Of a DNA stretch of 64,000 nt, positions 34,258 to 50,041 are shown piece by piece. A program made the position numbers and the translations under genes. The notes under the pieces were generated by a model. The model worked only from the letters and a program-made list of their open reading frames with translations, did no database searches and had not been told where the DNA came from. Position 1 is the first letter of the stretch, and the number at the start of each line of letters is the position of its first letter. The stretch spans positions 1-64,000 of the forward strand of contig JANXWB010000055.1 in assembly GCA_025351345.1 (NCBI GenBank), in the 5' to 3' direction. Source of the stretch: Synechococcales cyanobacterium GL140_1_metabat_312 (GTDB lineage Bacteria > Cyanobacteriota > Cyanobacteriia > Leptolyngbyales > Leptolyngbyaceae).

Positions 34258-34485
34258 TTACAACCGATCGATCAATTCATCTACCGTCACCTGTGCTTGT
34301 TTTAGAATGCTATTCAATGTGCCGAGCTTCAATTAACGATGCATGGGAACTACACATCCGATCGTCTCGTTCTCATACTTCTTCTGCATCACAATATGAC
34401 TACCTGTTTGGCGTACTTTTTCAAATCCTAAGGTTGTCAATACTCGAATCACATCGCGACTGGAAATTCTAGGCAGCCTCGGCAT
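34258..34485 (-). pseudogene. hicA: hicA toxin gene with in-frame stop
   Basis: The ATG at 34485 overlaps the end of hicB by 17 bp. The frame reads MPRLPRISSRDVIRVLTTLG, FEKVRQTGSHIVMQKK and CVVPMHR, with the active-site GSH at residues 28-30. A TAA at 34333-34335 then interrupts it, after which the same frame continues LKLGTLNSILKQAQVTVDEL to a stop at 34258. A single base change (GAA to TAA) would explain it. The product is a 50-residue fragment that keeps the catalytic histidine but loses the C-terminal helix. Confidence 0.85.
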
Positions 34486-34687
34486 AGCTGACCTCAATAT
34501 TTGTCACAAATCGAGGTGATATGTCTGGCATTGGAAATGACTCTAGATATAACTGTGTTGCAGCTTTCAAACCCTCGATCGCAGCTTCAATAGTTTCCCC
34601 TTGATCCACAGTTCCGATTTCAGGACATTCTGCAATGTATACATTATCTTCCTGATAAACGATAATGGCTAATTTTCTTGTCTTCAT
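34469..34687 (-). CDS. hicB: HicB-type antitoxin
   Basis: 72 residues. LAIIVYQEDNVYIAECPEIG and TVDQGETIEAAIEGLKAATQ match the partly degraded RNase H fold of HicB. It normally neutralises HicA; the partner here carries a nonsense mutation. No C-terminal DNA-binding domain is visible. Confidence 0.87.
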   Translation of the reverse strand: MKTRKLAIIVYQEDNVYIAECPEIGTVDQGETIEAAIEGLKAATQLYLESFPMPDISPRFVTNIEVSYAEAA

Positions 34688-34794
34688 TATTTTTCAGCTC
34701 ATTAAGAGTCTTCGATGGAGAAAGGATATATCTTTGCCTAATTATAATGCGATCGTCCCTTTCTCAATTCAGTGTTCGTTATTCAGGGAGGCCC

Positions 34795-34974
34795 GATCCC
34801 CCTAACCCCCTTGAAAAGGGGGAACCGGAGATGGAGAGGGAATGATGGTTGGGGAATGAATTCAAATTCAAGCAGAACTAACAATATCAAAATCATTTCT
34901 TGTTCCCCTTTTTTCTTGTCCCCCCTTTTTTGTGGCGTAGCCTGCCCGGAGGGCGTAGGGGCTAGGGGGATCGA
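34795..34974. repeat. palindromic MITE-like element, copy 1 (upstream of DUF559 gene)
   Basis: Left end GATCCCCCTAACCCCC, right end GGGGCTAGGGGGATCG. The right arm additionally holds the module GTGGCGTAGCCTGCCCGG. The central 95 bp is nearly identical and in the same orientation as in copy 2 at 35430-35609. Confidence 0.8.
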
Positions 34975-35036
34975 GCTTCCTGCAACAAACGCAAGATTTC
35001 CGGGAAAACTAGGTTTGTGTTGTGAGGGAGTTGTTG

Positions 35037-35504
35037 ATGGGTCGATCGTATGGGTTGAATCATTCACCGTTATTTTTGGCTTACGATCGAGATCTAGTTC
35101 ACCGTGCGAAGGAGATGCGTAAGAAGCCGACTGCCGCAGAACGTAAGCTTTGGGAAAATTGTTTATCGAAGTTTCCCCATCGGGTTTTACGGCAGCGTCC
35201 TATTGATCATTTCATTGTGGATTTTTATTGTGCAGCGTTGCAGTTAGTGATTGAGGTGGATGGTGATGTGCATGAGTTTGAACAAGCGCAGGTTTACGAT
35301 GAAATTCGATCGAAGATTTTGCAGAGTTATGGTTTGCAAGTTTTGCGAGTAACGAATGCGGAGGTATTGGGGGAGTTTGAGAAAGTCTACGAACGGGTTT
35401 GGGCGTTTTTGGATTTGACGGATAGGTCCAATCCCCCTAACCCCTACGCCCTCCGGGCAGGCTACGCCACAAAAAAGGGGGAACCGGAGATAGAGGGGGA
35501 ATGA
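35037..35504 (+). CDS. DUF559 (Vsr/PDDEXK-like) endonuclease-domain protein
   Basis: 155 residues from the ATG at 35037 (GAGGGAG 6 bases upstream); a GTG at 35022 is in frame. AKEMRKKPTAAERKLWE, RQRPIDHFIVDFYC and LVIEVDGDVHE are the DUF559 hallmark, with D, E and Q-type catalytic residues of the very-short-patch-repair nuclease fold. The last 25 residues (NPPNPYALRAGYATKKG and on) are read from the downstream repeat, so the original C-terminus was altered by it. The gene lies between two copies of the palindromic element. Confidence 0.82.
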   Translation: MGRSYGLNHSPLFLAYDRDLVHRAKEMRKKPTAAERKLWENCLSKFPHRVLRQRPIDHFIVDFYCAALQLVIEVDGDVHEFEQAQVYDEIRSKILQSYGLQVLRVTNAEVLGEFEKVYERVWAFLDLTDRSNPPNPYALRAGYATKKGEPEIEGE

Positions 35505-35609
35505 TGGTTGGGGAATGAATTCAAATTCAAGCAAAACTAACAATATTAAAATCACTTCTTGTTCCCCTTTTTTTCTTGTTCCCCCTTTTTAAGGGGGTTA
35601 GGGGGATCG
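35430..35609. repeat. palindromic MITE-like element, copy 2 (overlaps end of DUF559 gene)
   Basis: Left end AATCCCCCTAACCCC with the module CTACGCCCTCCGGGCAGG, right end AAGGGGGTTAGGGGGATCG. The outer end is an inverted copy of the left end of copy 1 and the inner end is an inverted copy of the right end of copy 1. Confidence 0.8.
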
Positions 35610-35679
35610 AAATTATGTCGTAGGAAGTGAGGCTATAGCTTATTCTTATTTTCAGGCTGGAAAGCAGATATACTACAGT

Positions 35680-37770
35680 TTACATCATCGCTGCGCGAGA
35701 AAAGAGCAAATGACTACCGTCGCCCCCCCCCGCCCATGAGGGTAATTCTCCTCTCGGAGAAAGAGTAGATGAAAATTTGTATTCTTCGTAGCTCACCCAG
35801 TTATCGACACCTCGTCGCCATCCCACTGCTTCCATGAATTTCTTGTAGTCGTCATTGTATGACATTGGACTCCCGCATTTCTCCCAGATCTTTTTCTGCA
35901 CTGAGAACCCAAAATGGCCATTACTCGCTGTTACCCAGAGGTTATCGATCGCTCTTAAATCCTCATAAGGAAAGTTCTTTAAATCTTCTGGATCAAACCC
36001 TTGCCCTTCGTCCTTCCCAACCGTCGTAATCATTAATCGATAAGTCTCTTGGTCAGCCTCACGCCATTCACCCGCTTTAAGCAAGTCACGCAATTTGGTA
36101 TGGTCCACTCCTTTTTCAGATTTTAAAATAATTGCATCGATCGCAGAAACCACTTCAATATCATCATGTTCTACTTCAATCTCGATCGTTGGACAGTCCA
36201 GCCCACGCTTTAAAAAGGCAACGCCTCGATCGCTTACTCCCCACCCACTGATCAACTTACGCCAGTGTGGTAAATGGCCATCCACGGTATTAAGACTGAA
36301 ATTATAGAAATTCGCGTAATCTCTGCGCCAATCTACTAATTCATCAAATAATGGCCATACATCAGATTTCGACACTTCCAAATGTCCCAAATTTTGTGCA
36401 AAGAGTCTTCCTTGAATACCTAACCCAAACTTACCATCACTAGCTTGTGACCATAGACCATCGATCGTATTCAATTGATCTTGGGGAAATTGACGAATCA
36501 TCCAAGCATGTAAGTTCTCATCTGGCTTACGATTTGCCATTACTAAAAACAATCGTAATGTCTCATCATTAGCTTCTTTCCATTTGTGGAATTGTAGAAG
36601 CTCTTCTAGGCGATCGAACTCTACTATTACAGGCTCAACCTGAGGATCACTCGAAGGTAATGCCGCAAGAACTTCTGCTTCCACCACTGCAACATCTTCA
36701 TCCAAAAGTCCCAGAAGTTTTTTAATCTCCATCAGATTCTGAAGTTGGGTTTCATCAAATGGATATCCTTCCTGTTTGACTCCTTCAGTAAAAATTTCGC
36801 GATATTCACTAATCTTTTCCTTACGTAATCGAATGGGTTCTAAAACGCGATCTTTAATTTCCGCAACAGCAGAGTCTTCTAAATTCAACTGTCGTTGCAA
36901 TAATCTAAGTCTAGTAAGTCCAAAACCTCTAATCTCTTCCCCGAATTGCTGAACCAATTCCTCAAAAACAACTTCATACTTTCGTCTTGGATCTCCGATC
37001 GCCACCTTCGCAATCCGTAATCCCTGGCCTGCACCCTTCGCAAACCACTGCGGTACCATAGCCGGAGCCTCCGACTGCACTTTTTGGCTGACATATTGAT
37101 GCAACTCATCCAGCGTAATTTGATCACTTCCATGAGTTGCCGCTGCACCCGTTCTCAGCCCTTCCACTAAATAATGTCCATAGATTGATAACTCTCGCCC
37201 CTTTGATTCAAAGGCATAAGCCATCGAACTCGTCGCCGTCATCACTACCCGTCCCTCACCAAAAATCTCTTCTACAGCCATCGAACTCGTCACTACCCGT
37301 CCCTCACCAAAAATCTCTTCTACATCGATCGCGCCATCATCCATCGGCACGAGATCCCCAAATGCTCCACTAAAACAGCAATTCAAAATAACAGCTTGCC
37401 GCGTTGCCCGACATTTCCTCATCCATTCACTTAGATCATGTGCCGACATTGCAGTTGTCTTGACTAAGTTCTCACCTTTTTTTTGGGTATCTATCGTCGC
37501 AAAATGCAATTTACGATCGCCATCTTTTACGCCATGTCCTGCCAAAAACAACAGCGAAAAATCATCTCTGCTATGACCCAAATACCAAGTCTCAATCTTA
37601 GGCCGCAAGTTTGATGAGGGCAGATCTGTCAGAATCTCCACCTCAAATCCCCCAATCTCTGGATTTCTCAATAAATCTCCCAAAACCCGGACATCTTCCA
37701 GCGGAGATTTGAGTGGACCAAAATTATTTGAGTAAGTTCCTGTGCCGATCAATAAAGCCTTGCGTGCCAT
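35680..37770 (-). CDS. caspase-like (C14) protease with two GUN4 domains
   Basis: 696 residues. The N-terminal peptidase C14 domain (1 to about 250) starts ARKALLIGTGTYSN; the catalytic pair is His79 in LFLAGHGVKD and Cys132 in ILNCCFSGAFG. An in-frame duplication (VEEIFGEGRVV twice, 150-176) follows the active site. Residues 265-370 form an all-helical linker. Two GUN4 domains follow: a divergent one at about 387-503 (KWKEANDETLRLFLVM, LNTIDGLWSQASDGKFGLGI) and a canonical one at about 558-680 (LKAGEWREADQETYRLM, IDNLWVTASNGHFGFSVQK). GUN4 binds tetrapyrroles. The EACC1-like gene lies 5 bp upstream in the same operon, suggesting a two-component conflict or stress-response system. Confidence 0.88.
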   Translation of the reverse strand: MARKALLIGTGTYSNNFGPLKSPLEDVRVLGDLLRNPEIGGFEVEILTDLPSSNLRPKIETWYLGHSRDDFSLLFLAGHGVKDGDRKLHFATIDTQKKGENLVKTTAMSAHDLSEWMRKCRATRQAVILNCCFSGAFGDLVPMDDGAIDVEEIFGEGRVVTSSMAVEEIFGEGRVVMTATSSMAYAFESKGRELSIYGHYLVEGLRTGAAATHGSDQITLDELHQYVSQKVQSEAPAMVPQWFAKGAGQGLRIAKVAIGDPRRKYEVVFEELVQQFGEEIRGFGLTRLRLLQRQLNLEDSAVAEIKDRVLEPIRLRKEKISEYREIFTEGVKQEGYPFDETQLQNLMEIKKLLGLLDEDVAVVEAEVLAALPSSDPQVEPVIVEFDRLEELLQFHKWKEANDETLRLFLVMANRKPDENLHAWMIRQFPQDQLNTIDGLWSQASDGKFGLGIQGRLFAQNLGHLEVSKSDVWPLFDELVDWRRDYANFYNFSLNTVDGHLPHWRKLISGWGVSDRGVAFLKRGLDCPTIEIEVEHDDIEVVSAIDAIILKSEKGVDHTKLRDLLKAGEWREADQETYRLMITTVGKDEGQGFDPEDLKNFPYEDLRAIDNLWVTASNGHFGFSVQKKIWEKCGSPMSYNDDYKKFMEAVGWRRGVDNWVSYEEYKFSSTLSPRGELPSWAGGGDGSHLLFSRAAMM

Positions 37771-37775
37771 CGTTC

Positions 37776-38171
37776 TTACTTCGTTTGAATCAACTGGATC
37801 ATAAACGTATCAATTGTCTTAACCGCTTCGATTTGCTCCTTAAGCTGTGTCGAGTTTTGATACTCCAATACCACCTCACGGCCATCTTTCTTATACGTGA
37901 TCTTCTGAGCCGCATTCGGCTTCAAAGTCCACAGCCACTGAAGCACCTTCCCCACGTTTGCGATCGACACTTCAGCCTTCAGCACTCCCAAAACCAATGC
38001 AGCGGCTCCAGACATTGCGCTATCAGGAACACTCTCTTCCCGAACCAACCCAGCATCTTCCGCCAAATCACTTCGCAATTCTTCTACAAGCCGCAGACTA
38101 TAAGCCTCTAGCGCATCTGGCTCCAAATCCAATCCAGCATGATTTAGGTCAATAATCAGTTCAGACAACAT
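37776..38171 (-). CDS. EACC1-like accessory protein (effector-associated constant component)
   Basis: 131 residues from the ATG at 38171, which has GAGG 8 bases upstream. The layout is a short alpha/beta N-terminus (RLVEELRSDLAEDAG), a glycine/alanine-rich helix (AMSGAAALVLGVLKAEVS), a tryptophan-containing helix (VLQWLWTLKP) and a C-terminal beta pair (ITYKKDGREVVLEYQNS). This resembles the EACC1 family, which accompanies caspase, TIR or trypsin-like effectors in NTP-dependent conflict systems. It directly precedes the caspase-GUN4 gene. The assignment is by pattern only. Confidence 0.55.
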   Translation of the reverse strand: MLSELIIDLNHAGLDLEPDALEAYSLRLVEELRSDLAEDAGLVREESVPDSAMSGAAALVLGVLKAEVSIANVGKVLQWLWTLKPNAAQKITYKKDGREVVLEYQNSTQLKEQIEAVKTIDTFMIQLIQTK

Positions 38172-38384
38172 TATTGGCCTCAAAACTCTTTCTACAACTA
38201 CATCGTAACTATTCCCTAATTCTACACCCACCGAAAACTAAATTTCGGGGAAAAGCTACGATTTATTCTAAGGCGGCAAAAAAGCACCGATCGAGTTGAA
38301 TATTAAAATAAAAAAGCAGTAACTCCAAACAATGAAATTACTACCTTCTATGGTTAAAAGAATCGATCGAATTTGAATGCTTTT

Positions 38385-48633: not shown

Positions 48634-49317
48634 TCATAGTAATCCTCGTTTTTTTAGCTTGGCCATAGCATCTTCAGCAGCTTGTTTTTCTGCATCTTTC
48701 TTACTACGGCCTTTACCTTCACCATAGAATTTACTATCCACATATACCCTAGAAAAGAACTCTGGAGCATGATCTGTACCACCTAATTTTTCTGTAATAT
48801 AGTTAGGCGGAACCTCTGCTCCATTCGCCTGTACGAATCCCTGAAACTTATTTTTTGAATCTATATTTGACCGAACTGCCATAACACCCTTAGGTACAGA
48901 GTCAAATAGTTCTTCTACTAAAGGACGCAGTATTTCAATGTCTTGCTTGTTATCTAAATAGTAAGCCCCAATGACAGATTCAAAAGTGCTGCTAAGAAGA
49001 TTTGGATTTTGATAACCGCCTTCACGGATTGCTCCTTGTCCCAGTCTCATTCTGAAATCCAATCCAACTTCAATAGCGAACCTAGCTAATTGTTTTTCAT
49101 CTACAAGTGCTGCTCGCCGTCGTGTCATTTCGTCTTCTCCTATTTCAGGATGAATCTGATAAAGGTACTCAGCACTGATGAAATTAAGGATTGAATCACC
49201 AAGAAACTCCAGTCGCTCATTATCTCCACATTCTCCAGGATTTTCATTGACATAGGAGCGATGAGTTAGGGATTGGCGTAGAAGCTTCTCATCATTAAAT
49301 ATCAAGAGTTTGTGCAT
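48634..49317 (-). CDS. rnc: ribonuclease III
   Basis: 227 residues. The RNase III signature is NERLEFLGDSILNFISAEYL; the catalytic domain ends near 150 with FESVIGAYYLDN. A C-terminal dsRNA-binding domain (about 157-225) holds KNKFQGFVQANG and GKGRSKKDAEKQAAEDAM. It processes rRNA and structured RNAs. It lies 64 bp downstream of the HEPN-like gene on the same strand, probably cotranscribed. It may be one of several RNase III paralogues, as cyanobacteria often have two or three. Confidence 0.95.
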   Translation of the reverse strand: MHKLLIFNDEKLLRQSLTHRSYVNENPGECGDNERLEFLGDSILNFISAEYLYQIHPEIGEDEMTRRRAALVDEKQLARFAIEVGLDFRMRLGQGAIREGGYQNPNLLSSTFESVIGAYYLDNKQDIEILRPLVEELFDSVPKGVMAVRSNIDSKNKFQGFVQANGAEVPPNYITEKLGGTDHAPEFFSRVYVDSKFYGEGKGRSKKDAEKQAAEDAMAKLKKRGLL

Positions 49318-49381
49318 TTTTTCTCACTCCATTAACTACAAATTGATTTAGGTACAAATGACCGCTGATGAATAGAAGCTA

Positions 49382-50041
49382 TTAGCACGAAAGTTGTTGC
49401 AATGCCTCAATCCAGACATTTAATTCTTGTCTAGCCATGTTTCTATCAGTTAATTCCTTTTCTTGGTGAGCAATATAGGTATTTCGGAATTTATTAATTC
49501 GATCGATGATTTCCAGAAGTTTATGTCCGCTTTGAATCCAAAATTGGTTACGCAGAGCTGTAAAAACACCGTCGATTTTTGTAGTGCAATTCAAAGAATA
49601 GTCTAGGCACGATCGCAATAACCCAATCGGTGATAACCCGTTATTAGACATCAATGTACGCTTCAGGCTTTTCGCCAGATCACGATACTTTCTCTGTAAT
49701 TTACGATTGACCCCATCCATATTTGGCTCAAACCAGTCTTTTTTACCATCTTTAGTAGTGGGCAACTCTGGCTGAAGAAGACGCATAATGTAGTCTTTTG
49801 CTGATTTATCGATCGCACCTAGCAAGGGTGTGAAGACTGATTCATAAGTCATGCCTTGATCTTCGCTACAGAAACCCAAGAGCTTTATAGATTGATCGGC
49901 GCGGCTGCGATAGTGAGGAGGAAGGGTATTCAGAATAGCTGGATCGATTAGGTTATTTACTGAGGCTTGCACCTTATCTGCCGAAACCAACTTGCGGCTC
50001 GATTGAGCTTTTTTAGAGGTTTTTTGTTTGGATGTCGTCAT
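49382..50041 (-). CDS. hypothetical protein with HEPN-like motif
   Basis: 219 residues, basic N-terminus (KQKTSKKAQSSRK), otherwise all-helical. Near the C-terminus RINKFRNTYIAHQEKELTD contains R186-x5-H192, the Rx4-6H motif of HEPN ribonucleases. It lies upstream of rnc on the same strand. HEPN domains occur in toxins, CRISPR Csm6/Cas13 and other RNA-targeting proteins. Here the family is not identified; a role in RNA metabolism or defence is inferred. Confidence 0.55.
   Translation of the reverse strand: MTTSKQKTSKKAQSSRKLVSADKVQASVNNLIDPAILNTLPPHYRSRADQSIKLLGFCSEDQGMTYESVFTPLLGAIDKSAKDYIMRLLQPELPTTKDGKKDWFEPNMDGVNRKLQRKYRDLAKSLKRTLMSNNGLSPIGLLRSCLDYSLNCTTKIDGVFTALRNQFWIQSGHKLLEIIDRINKFRNTYIAHQEKELTDRNMARQELNVWIEALQQLSC

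Follow-up and report, generated by a model that had tools for sequence, protein, structure and literature searches.

Organization of the DUF559 locus

The window, a 64,000-nt stretch of cyanobacterial DNA that represents contig 77 of a 3.85-Mb genome (G000), carries a gene for a DUF559 nuclease framed by two elements in direct orientation. The original prediction gave these elements a length of about 180 bp, and each was found to span about 178 bp. The features of the locus are listed below, with the basis of each assignment in parentheses.

34795..34972 (+): element 1, REPIN-like, built of a pair of inverted triplex-type REPs around a ~100-nt middle (repeated directly as element 2)
34795..34822 (-): left-hand outer REP, comprising the third arm GATCCCCC, a TAA loop and the hairpin CCCCC-TTGAAAA-GGGGG (minus-strand match to the type-A motif AAGGGGGTTAGGGGGATC)
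34920..34972 (+): inner-end REP of element 1, whose loop contains the module and is thereby enlarged, ending GGGGCTAGGGGGATC toward the gene (sequence and repeat comparison)
34932..34957 (+): palindromic module GTGGCGTAGCCTGCCCGGAGGGCGTA, nested within the loop of this REP (sequence)
34958..34974 (+): 17-nt element end, proposed recombination site (joined to 35594-35610, gives the sequence of the genome G006)
35037..35504 (+): DUF559 nuclease gene, 155 aa, ATG start (Pfam PF04480, 5e-25)
35094..35411 (+): DUF559 catalytic domain (D43, E54, D56 and H60 in domain numbering, identical in all of 24 relatives)
35424..35504 (+): nuclease C-terminus, encoded by element 2 and ending ..NPPNPYALRAGYATKKGEPEIEGE (sequence and translation)
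35431..35608 (+): element 2, REPIN-like, repeating element 1 directly but carrying the module at the inner end on its left (repeat comparison)
35445..35470 (-): inverted copy of the nested module (sequence and repeat comparison)
35581..35608 (+): right-hand outer REP in the textbook form of an intrastrand triplex, CCCCC-TTTTTAA-GGGGG-TTA-GGGGG(ATC) (sequence)
35594..35610 (+): 17-nt element end, second copy (direct-repeat family with 34958-34974)

Each element consists of two inverted short palindromes flanking a middle of ~100 nt, which is the layout of a REPIN. The two share a direct repeat of 118 nt (34814-34931 and 35473-35590) with an identity of 90% by the repeat finder and 94% by BLAST, and the 17-nt direct repeat that forms their ends is 94% identical. 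As predicted, the outer ends are nearly perfect inverted repeats, measured at 32 nt and 97% (34794-34825 and 35578-35609) for an expected length of about 30 bp. Inverted inner ends are likewise present, but they extend over 67 nt at 88% identity (34905-34971 and 35431-35497) rather than the 53 bp or so originally proposed. The “exchanged arms” of the two elements arise because the ~26-nt palindromic module resides in the hairpin loop of both inner ends and is missing from both outer ends. Inverted flanks with a score of at least 30 were found in 0 of 1563 random intervals, placing the arrangement in the window far above chance.

The window genome contains one DUF559 gene and about twenty copies of the palindrome, approximately ten of which are paired GATCCCCC..GGGGGATC elements, 40-180 bp long. 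The stretch around the module (approximately 34913-34973) has many matches of about 90% or more in two further genomes, G006 and G007. At three other loci (L020, L021 and L023) different short inserts occupy the same position in the REP loop, so that the loop looks like a place where smaller repeats land. Upstream of the elements, a short ORF at 34469-34687 (-) resembles a HicB antitoxin by eye, with no Pfam match, and the G006 sequence differs at this spot. Downstream, 35680-37770 (-) encodes a caspase-domain protein with two GUN4 domains and adjoins an EACC1-like short ORF (37776-38231); DNA matching the caspase/GUN4 gene is present at the same locus in G006 and absent there in the genome G005.

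The encoded nuclease

The ATG at 35037 is preceded by GAGGGA and opens with an MGR(S) start also found in L024 and L025, while an alternative GTG start at 35022 would give 160 aa; the coding sequence is likely 35037-35504. Membership in DUF559 is clear, with a PF04480 profile score of 87.9 bits against a curated cut-off of 20.6. The prediction that the C-terminus is read from an element was borne out, as the last ~25 residues are encoded by element 2. In an alignment of 24 DUF559 domains, D43, E54, D56, H60 and further residues are invariant. The solved endonuclease-like protein PDB 3hrl was matched by the window gene (2.4e-12) and by the DUF559 alignment (2.5e-30), and the alignment also matched PDB 3r3p, a mobile intron protein (1.5e-6), which we take to be the EDxHD homing endonuclease I-Bth0305I. 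EDxHD nucleases, I-Bth0305I among them, spread their own genes from introns (PMC3943268). The window protein is a PD-(D/E)XK nuclease of the Vsr/EDxHD type, in agreement with the Vsr/PDDEXK placement put forward originally, and YcjD had earlier been assigned to this fold, with Vsr among its relatives (PMC1189080).

Among related proteins, the Caulobacter DUF559 protein VsrA is active in vivo, leads to SOS induction upon methylation loss and has been proposed as a mismatch-repair nuclease (PMC12907096), and a DUF559 protein of Thermosynechococcus has been termed an EDxHD intein nuclease (PMC9403480). In one locus of the present set (L129, G024:C1:639000-649000), the C-terminal stretch behind a DUF559 domain resembles an intein and ends ..EICAIHN, which suggests that the same type of nuclease also serves inteins. 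PADLOC returned a weak match to a methyl-directed restriction enzyme and nothing else. No cytosine methyltransferase gene, the linkage expected of a Vsr protein, was recognised among the ORFs adjoining the window gene.

Repeats are enriched beside DUF559 genes

DUF559 domains are present in 37 of the 42 genomes of the window's family, and nearly all of the canonical DUF559 genes are surrounded by G/C-run palindromes of several sequence types. When a hairpin-plus-tag motif, defined after viewing the loci, was counted within 350 bp of each gene, canonical DUF559 genes of the family had a repeat on any side in 32/32 cases and on both sides in 24/32. The corresponding values were 0/29 and 0/29 for control Uma2 nucleases, 2/29 and 0/29 for control Y1 transposases, and 1/5 and 0/5 for divergent or helicase-fused DUF559 genes. 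For repeats on both sides, the difference between canonical DUF559 genes and the two control families (0/58) is highly significant (Fisher, 2e-15). The enrichment of elements beside DUF559 genes that the original prediction called for is thus strong within the family. Across phyla, repeats were found on any side of 45/68 DUF559 genes and on both sides of 26/68, compared to 24/1178 and 0/1178 random intervals (Fisher for both sides, 8e-36); about a third of these loci have no repeat by the criteria used.

As the hairpin-plus-tag motif was designed after viewing the loci, a stricter, motif-free test was also conducted, in which the best inverted or direct alignment between the 350 bp upstream and the 350 bp downstream of a gene was scored. 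A score of at least 30 was reached by 35 of 66 loci from many phyla and by 28 of 1563 random intervals from the same contigs, and with inverted orientation alone by 24/66 and 0/1563, respectively. For the cross-phylum set, the motif-free inverted-flank test yielded 29/68 against 7/1178.

Clear cases were detected in Cyanobacteria, Bacteroidota (including MAGs), Chloroflexi, Acidobacteria, Hydrogenedentes, Uhrbacteria, Pseudomonadota and Deinococcota, so that the association between DUF559 and the repeats spans at least eight phyla, from cyanobacteria to E. coli. Annotated records with repeats beside DUF559 include those of Sphingomonas, Neisseria, Azospirillum, E. coli, Photobacterium, Sinorhizobium and Deinococcus. 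In the E. coli record, 3 of the 19 motif sites in the whole genome lie within 300 bp of the DUF559 gene ycjD, between sapF and fabI, and here the repeats are confined to a single side. The E. coli gene looks stably inherited, and ycjD has been described as conserved in phylogroups A, B1 and C (PMC12817139).

Several of these records have further features of their own. Between sapF and fabI, ycjD with its repeats (L257 and L259) and the eefRABCD efflux operon (L258) alternate, and the ycjD stretch is present in 3334 of 5426 E. coli genomes. In N. gonorrhoeae NZ_CP119142.1 (L246, ~48728-49395), a tandem repeat array with a period of ~281 bp adjoins the DUF559 gene, and similar arrays are found elsewhere in that genome. 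On a plasmid of Synechocystis sp. B12 (L253), a DUF559 gene with its own annotation lies directly upstream of a BREX PglX fragment; here PglX has probably received the insertion and been annotated as two genes.

The repeats carry a triplex code and match the nuclease clade

Past its hairpin, each repeat has a third G-rich arm that follows a loop of ~3 nt (TTA, CTA, TTT, TTG, CTG or CCG). In order to read the code of this arm, 101 non-redundant repeats adjacent to DUF559 were examined by comparing the 3' arm of each hairpin with its mirrored third arm, with selection positions excluded. A stem G was opposite G 326 times and opposite A or T 28 times, and a stem A was opposite A or T 163 times and opposite G 16 times. 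The resulting odds ratio of 119 (P=1.8e-86) is abolished by a register shift of -1, +1 or +2, although this P value is nominal because the repeats are not independent, a flaw that the register controls share. Pairing of G to G and of A to A or T is the code of a purine-motif triplex. The repeats therefore follow the base code of an intrastrand triplex, into which they are predicted to fold from their sequence. The C-run, loop, G-rich arm, short loop and mirrored third arm of the BoxC/PIT/TM motif are all found at 35581-35605, and for the E. coli TM motif triplex formation has been shown in vitro (PMC4666352). This third, triplex-forming arm, and the extension of the DUF559-repeat association well past cyanobacteria, were overlooked in the original prediction.

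Four repeat types (A-D) were assigned by simple motifs, and most loci have a single type. On a DUF559 tree of 80 loci, built from ~110 columns and with many weak forks, repeat type changes 9 times, compared to a minimum of 3 and a mean of 40 after shuffling, and 0 of 200 shuffled sets were as low. In G015 and G032, which have several DUF559 genes, every nuclease clade has a repeat type of its own at its flanks, and the match between repeat and clade is therefore more than genome background. Strict type-A repeats are commoner in genomes with a type-A DUF559 gene (7/10 versus 5/32, P=0.002, ignoring relatedness), a modest correlation.

Filled, repeat-only and empty sites

G006 is a genome of the same genus as the window genome, is 99% complete and has no DUF559 gene. 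At the window locus, both flanks are conserved in G006 and exactly one element is present (L111:2127-2351), with 96% identity to element 1. Recombination of the two 17-nt element ends, which joins window position 34957 to 35594, reproduces the G006 junction exactly. G007 has the DUF559 gene together with the same short right-hand flank as the window. Because recombination at the 17-nt ends yields the G006 sequence and G007 holds DUF559 with this flank, the direction of change is ambiguous, and loss of DUF559 in G006 is no less probable than its acquisition by the window genome. G005 was no help in polarising the site, as it lacks element 1, the caspase gene and all that lies between them. A simple tandem duplication of the G006 element was rejected, since it does not account for the left-end position of the module in copy 2; our guess is that the module arrived there through inversion or gene conversion between inverted arms. 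G006 contains many repeats and no DUF559, and the repeats therefore persist without the nuclease gene.

Nine units lie in frame within larger genes, eight of which are DNA methyltransferase or restriction-type genes; L122 lies within an unrelated protein. For five methyltransferase hosts of a REP-DUF559-REP unit, homologs were searched and their junctions read. Homologs with neither repeat nor gene exist for all five, and two hosts also have homologs with repeats only at the same spot, namely one REPIN of 90 nt (L159) and two tandem REPINs totalling 276 nt (L149). Inserts at the filled sites are repeat-flanked and 516-696 nt long, with all lengths being multiples of three; they replace approximately 6-45 nt of target, and the insertion points differ. 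In addition, a CobN-like gene contains a plain REPIN in frame in the window genome (L223, G000:C28:29276-29386) that is absent in G006 (L238). Other REPINs are common to both genomes, and REPINs themselves thus come and go.

Pairs of filled and empty sites, which were to be looked for, thus exist at the window locus and at five methyltransferase sites. Neither of the two outcomes named as speaking against the prediction, a lack of enrichment and an absence of such pairs, was therefore obtained. Target duplications were sought as well, and none was evident at the five host insertions or the one REPIN, at a resolution limited by the divergence of the pairs. The idea of a composite mobile unit with a nuclease inside is therefore upheld in part: the association, the filled and empty pairs and the mobile appearance favor it, while the lack of evident target duplication and the possible gene loss behind the window pair do not, and the nuclease is a candidate agent of the spread, as the original prediction suggested.

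Proposed mechanism and alternative explanations

With slightly better than even confidence, we favor a widespread two-part system, of which the window locus would be one copy, in which a Vsr/EDxHD-type nuclease of the DUF559/YcjD family and its cognate triplex-forming palindromes, usually REPINs, would spread together in a homing-like manner. The genomes show directly that repeats and nuclease genes are associated, that repeat type matches clade, that the repeats follow the triplex code and that units sit in frame inside genes, with sites occurring in empty, repeat-only and filled form; from this we infer cleavage of the repeats, movement, the repair route and the nuclease as the agent. The nuclease would recognise its cognate repeat, possibly in the folded form, and break the DNA there. 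Repair through homologous or annealing repeat arms would then copy a REPIN, or a REPIN-DUF559-REPIN unit, into or beside the break, and the same recombination between repeat arms could remove the gene and leave a single REPIN as a scar. Such breakage and repeat-mediated repair would explain why the flanks are of a matched repeat type, why direct and inverted copies occur, why repeat-only states exist at the same sites and why a REPIN remains after loss. The homology to 3r3p, the intein-like C-terminus at L129 and the intein-associated DUF559 of Thermosynechococcus (PMC9403480) count for the homing-like reading. Counting against it are the lack of evident target duplication, the possible gene loss behind the window pair, the repeats of G006 without DUF559, the DUF559 loci at which no repeat was scored, the definition of the hairpin-plus-tag motif after viewing the loci, the mismatch-repair proposal for VsrA (PMC12907096) and the stability of ycjD with its one-sided repeats. 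A wider claim, that DUF559/YcjD and the BoxC-type triplex repeats form a single ancient class of mobile element, unrelated to known transposases, whose spread in many phyla is driven by a sequence- or structure-specific nuclease recognising the folded triplex, is plausible but falls a little short of an even chance.

The main rival, which we regard as rather unlikely, would make DUF559 a RAYT-like, transposase-like enzyme that excises and inserts REPINs, the gene-carrying form being autonomous and plain REPINs non-autonomous. It fits the placement of the gene between inverted REPs, the many copies elsewhere that have no gene, the clean gain or loss of a plain REPIN in the CobN-like gene and the co-variation of repeat type and nuclease clade; DUF559, however, offers a nuclease fold alone without known transposase chemistry, and the small target losses at insertions, with no target duplication, resemble break repair. 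Mobilization of the repeats by RAYT proteins was rejected, as Y1 genes of the family had repeats on both sides in 0/29 cases. Unlikely, too, is a housekeeping role in which DUF559 guards the genome by cutting or resolving triplex repeats, or by mismatch repair, with selection linking the two and the repeats spreading otherwise, for example by replication slippage at the triplex. The tie between triplex motifs and instability in E. coli (PMC4666352), the SOS phenotype and proposed repair function of the Caulobacter protein (PMC12907096) and the conservation of ycjD in phylogroups A, B1 and C (PMC12817139) would all suit such an enzyme, but it needs no linkage in cis, and in-frame insertions in many genes and clade-specific repeat types within one genome fit a mobile unit better.

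Two further readings have very little probability. If DUF559 were the nuclease domain of methyltransferase or restriction proteins and the repeats incidental linkers, the 8/9 in-frame cases in genes of these kinds and the weak PADLOC match would be expected; this restriction-module reading is disfavored by common empty homologs and variable insertion points, and most copies, including that of the window, stand alone, with L122 lying in an unrelated protein. That the repeats are transcription terminators or common landing spots, with DUF559 one of many genes there, would agree with the many DUF559 stop codons located within a repeat. The control small genes (0/58 on both sides) and the random intervals (0/1178) led to rejection of this passive reading; moreover, the repeats stand on both sides and match the nuclease clade, and BoxC/PIT repeats have been reported to lack terminator activity (PMC4666352).

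If the two-part, homing-like system is correct, it has consequences on both sides of the pair. Neither a function nor a mode of spread has been established for the triplex-forming BoxC/PIT repeats since they became known in the 1990s, and DUF559, including E. coli YcjD, is one of many small nucleases without an assigned role; the link, if true, would explain both. The orphan repeats would gain a likely partner enzyme, the old question of how they spread would become testable, and a directly testable enzyme-substrate pair would be available in laboratory strains of E. coli and Synechocystis. A nuclease with a triplex repeat would further constitute a mobile-element principle distinct from transposase/REP systems, and the odd in-frame inserts and low-complexity tails of many annotated cyanobacterial proteins would be explained.

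Comparison with known systems

By sequence, the repeats match the known but ownerless BoxC/PIT/TM motif, including the copies beside E. coli ycjD. This intrastrand-triplex motif was described in earlier studies and by Holder et al. 2015 (PMC4666352), who cite them and reported no mobility genes near it and did not mention DUF559. It shares with the repeats described here the hairpin and mirrored G-rich third arm, the 3-nt loop (TTA or CCG types) and the frequent occurrence as inverted pairs of type A and type B; the repeats beside DUF559 obey the same code, and the motif is abundant in cyanobacteria, Neisseria and E. coli. Unlike in that description, the repeats have a nuclease partner, a match between repeat and nuclease, and distinct insertion states. 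Rickettsia palindromic elements are similar in placing palindromic repeats in frame within protein genes, but their sequence differs, and we know of no partner nuclease for them.

REPIN-RAYT systems comprise short palindromes in inverted pairs, many copies of which have no gene, and a gene of low copy number that lies between repeats of its own type. REPINs have been described previously (PMC3116915), and the layout of the DUF559 locus resembles that of their loci, with inverted REP pairs also dispersed gene-free (~10 in the window genome). Here, however, the enzyme is a PD-(D/E)XK nuclease and not a Y1 tyrosine transposase, the repeats bear a triplex arm and not a GTAG tag, and these repeats do not flank the Y1 genes of the same genomes. 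The DUF559-repeat system is thus not a REPIN-RAYT, though it looks similarly built.

EDxHD/Vsr homing endonucleases (I-Bth0305I, 3r3p) are related by profile similarity (1.5e-6), by filled and empty alleles at the same site and by the presence of DUF559 in an intein (PMC9403480). They differ in that most DUF559 loci have no intron or intein, the gene lies amid multicopy repeats and not at one unique homing site, and DUF559 proteins, at ~120-160 aa, are without a long DNA-binding extension. No paper linking DUF559 or YcjD to repeats was found in the literature searched, which left subscription journals and most preprints outside its scope. The filled and empty alleles and the kinship of the enzyme would fit a homing element, and there is a real chance that DUF559 and its repeats represent a new class.
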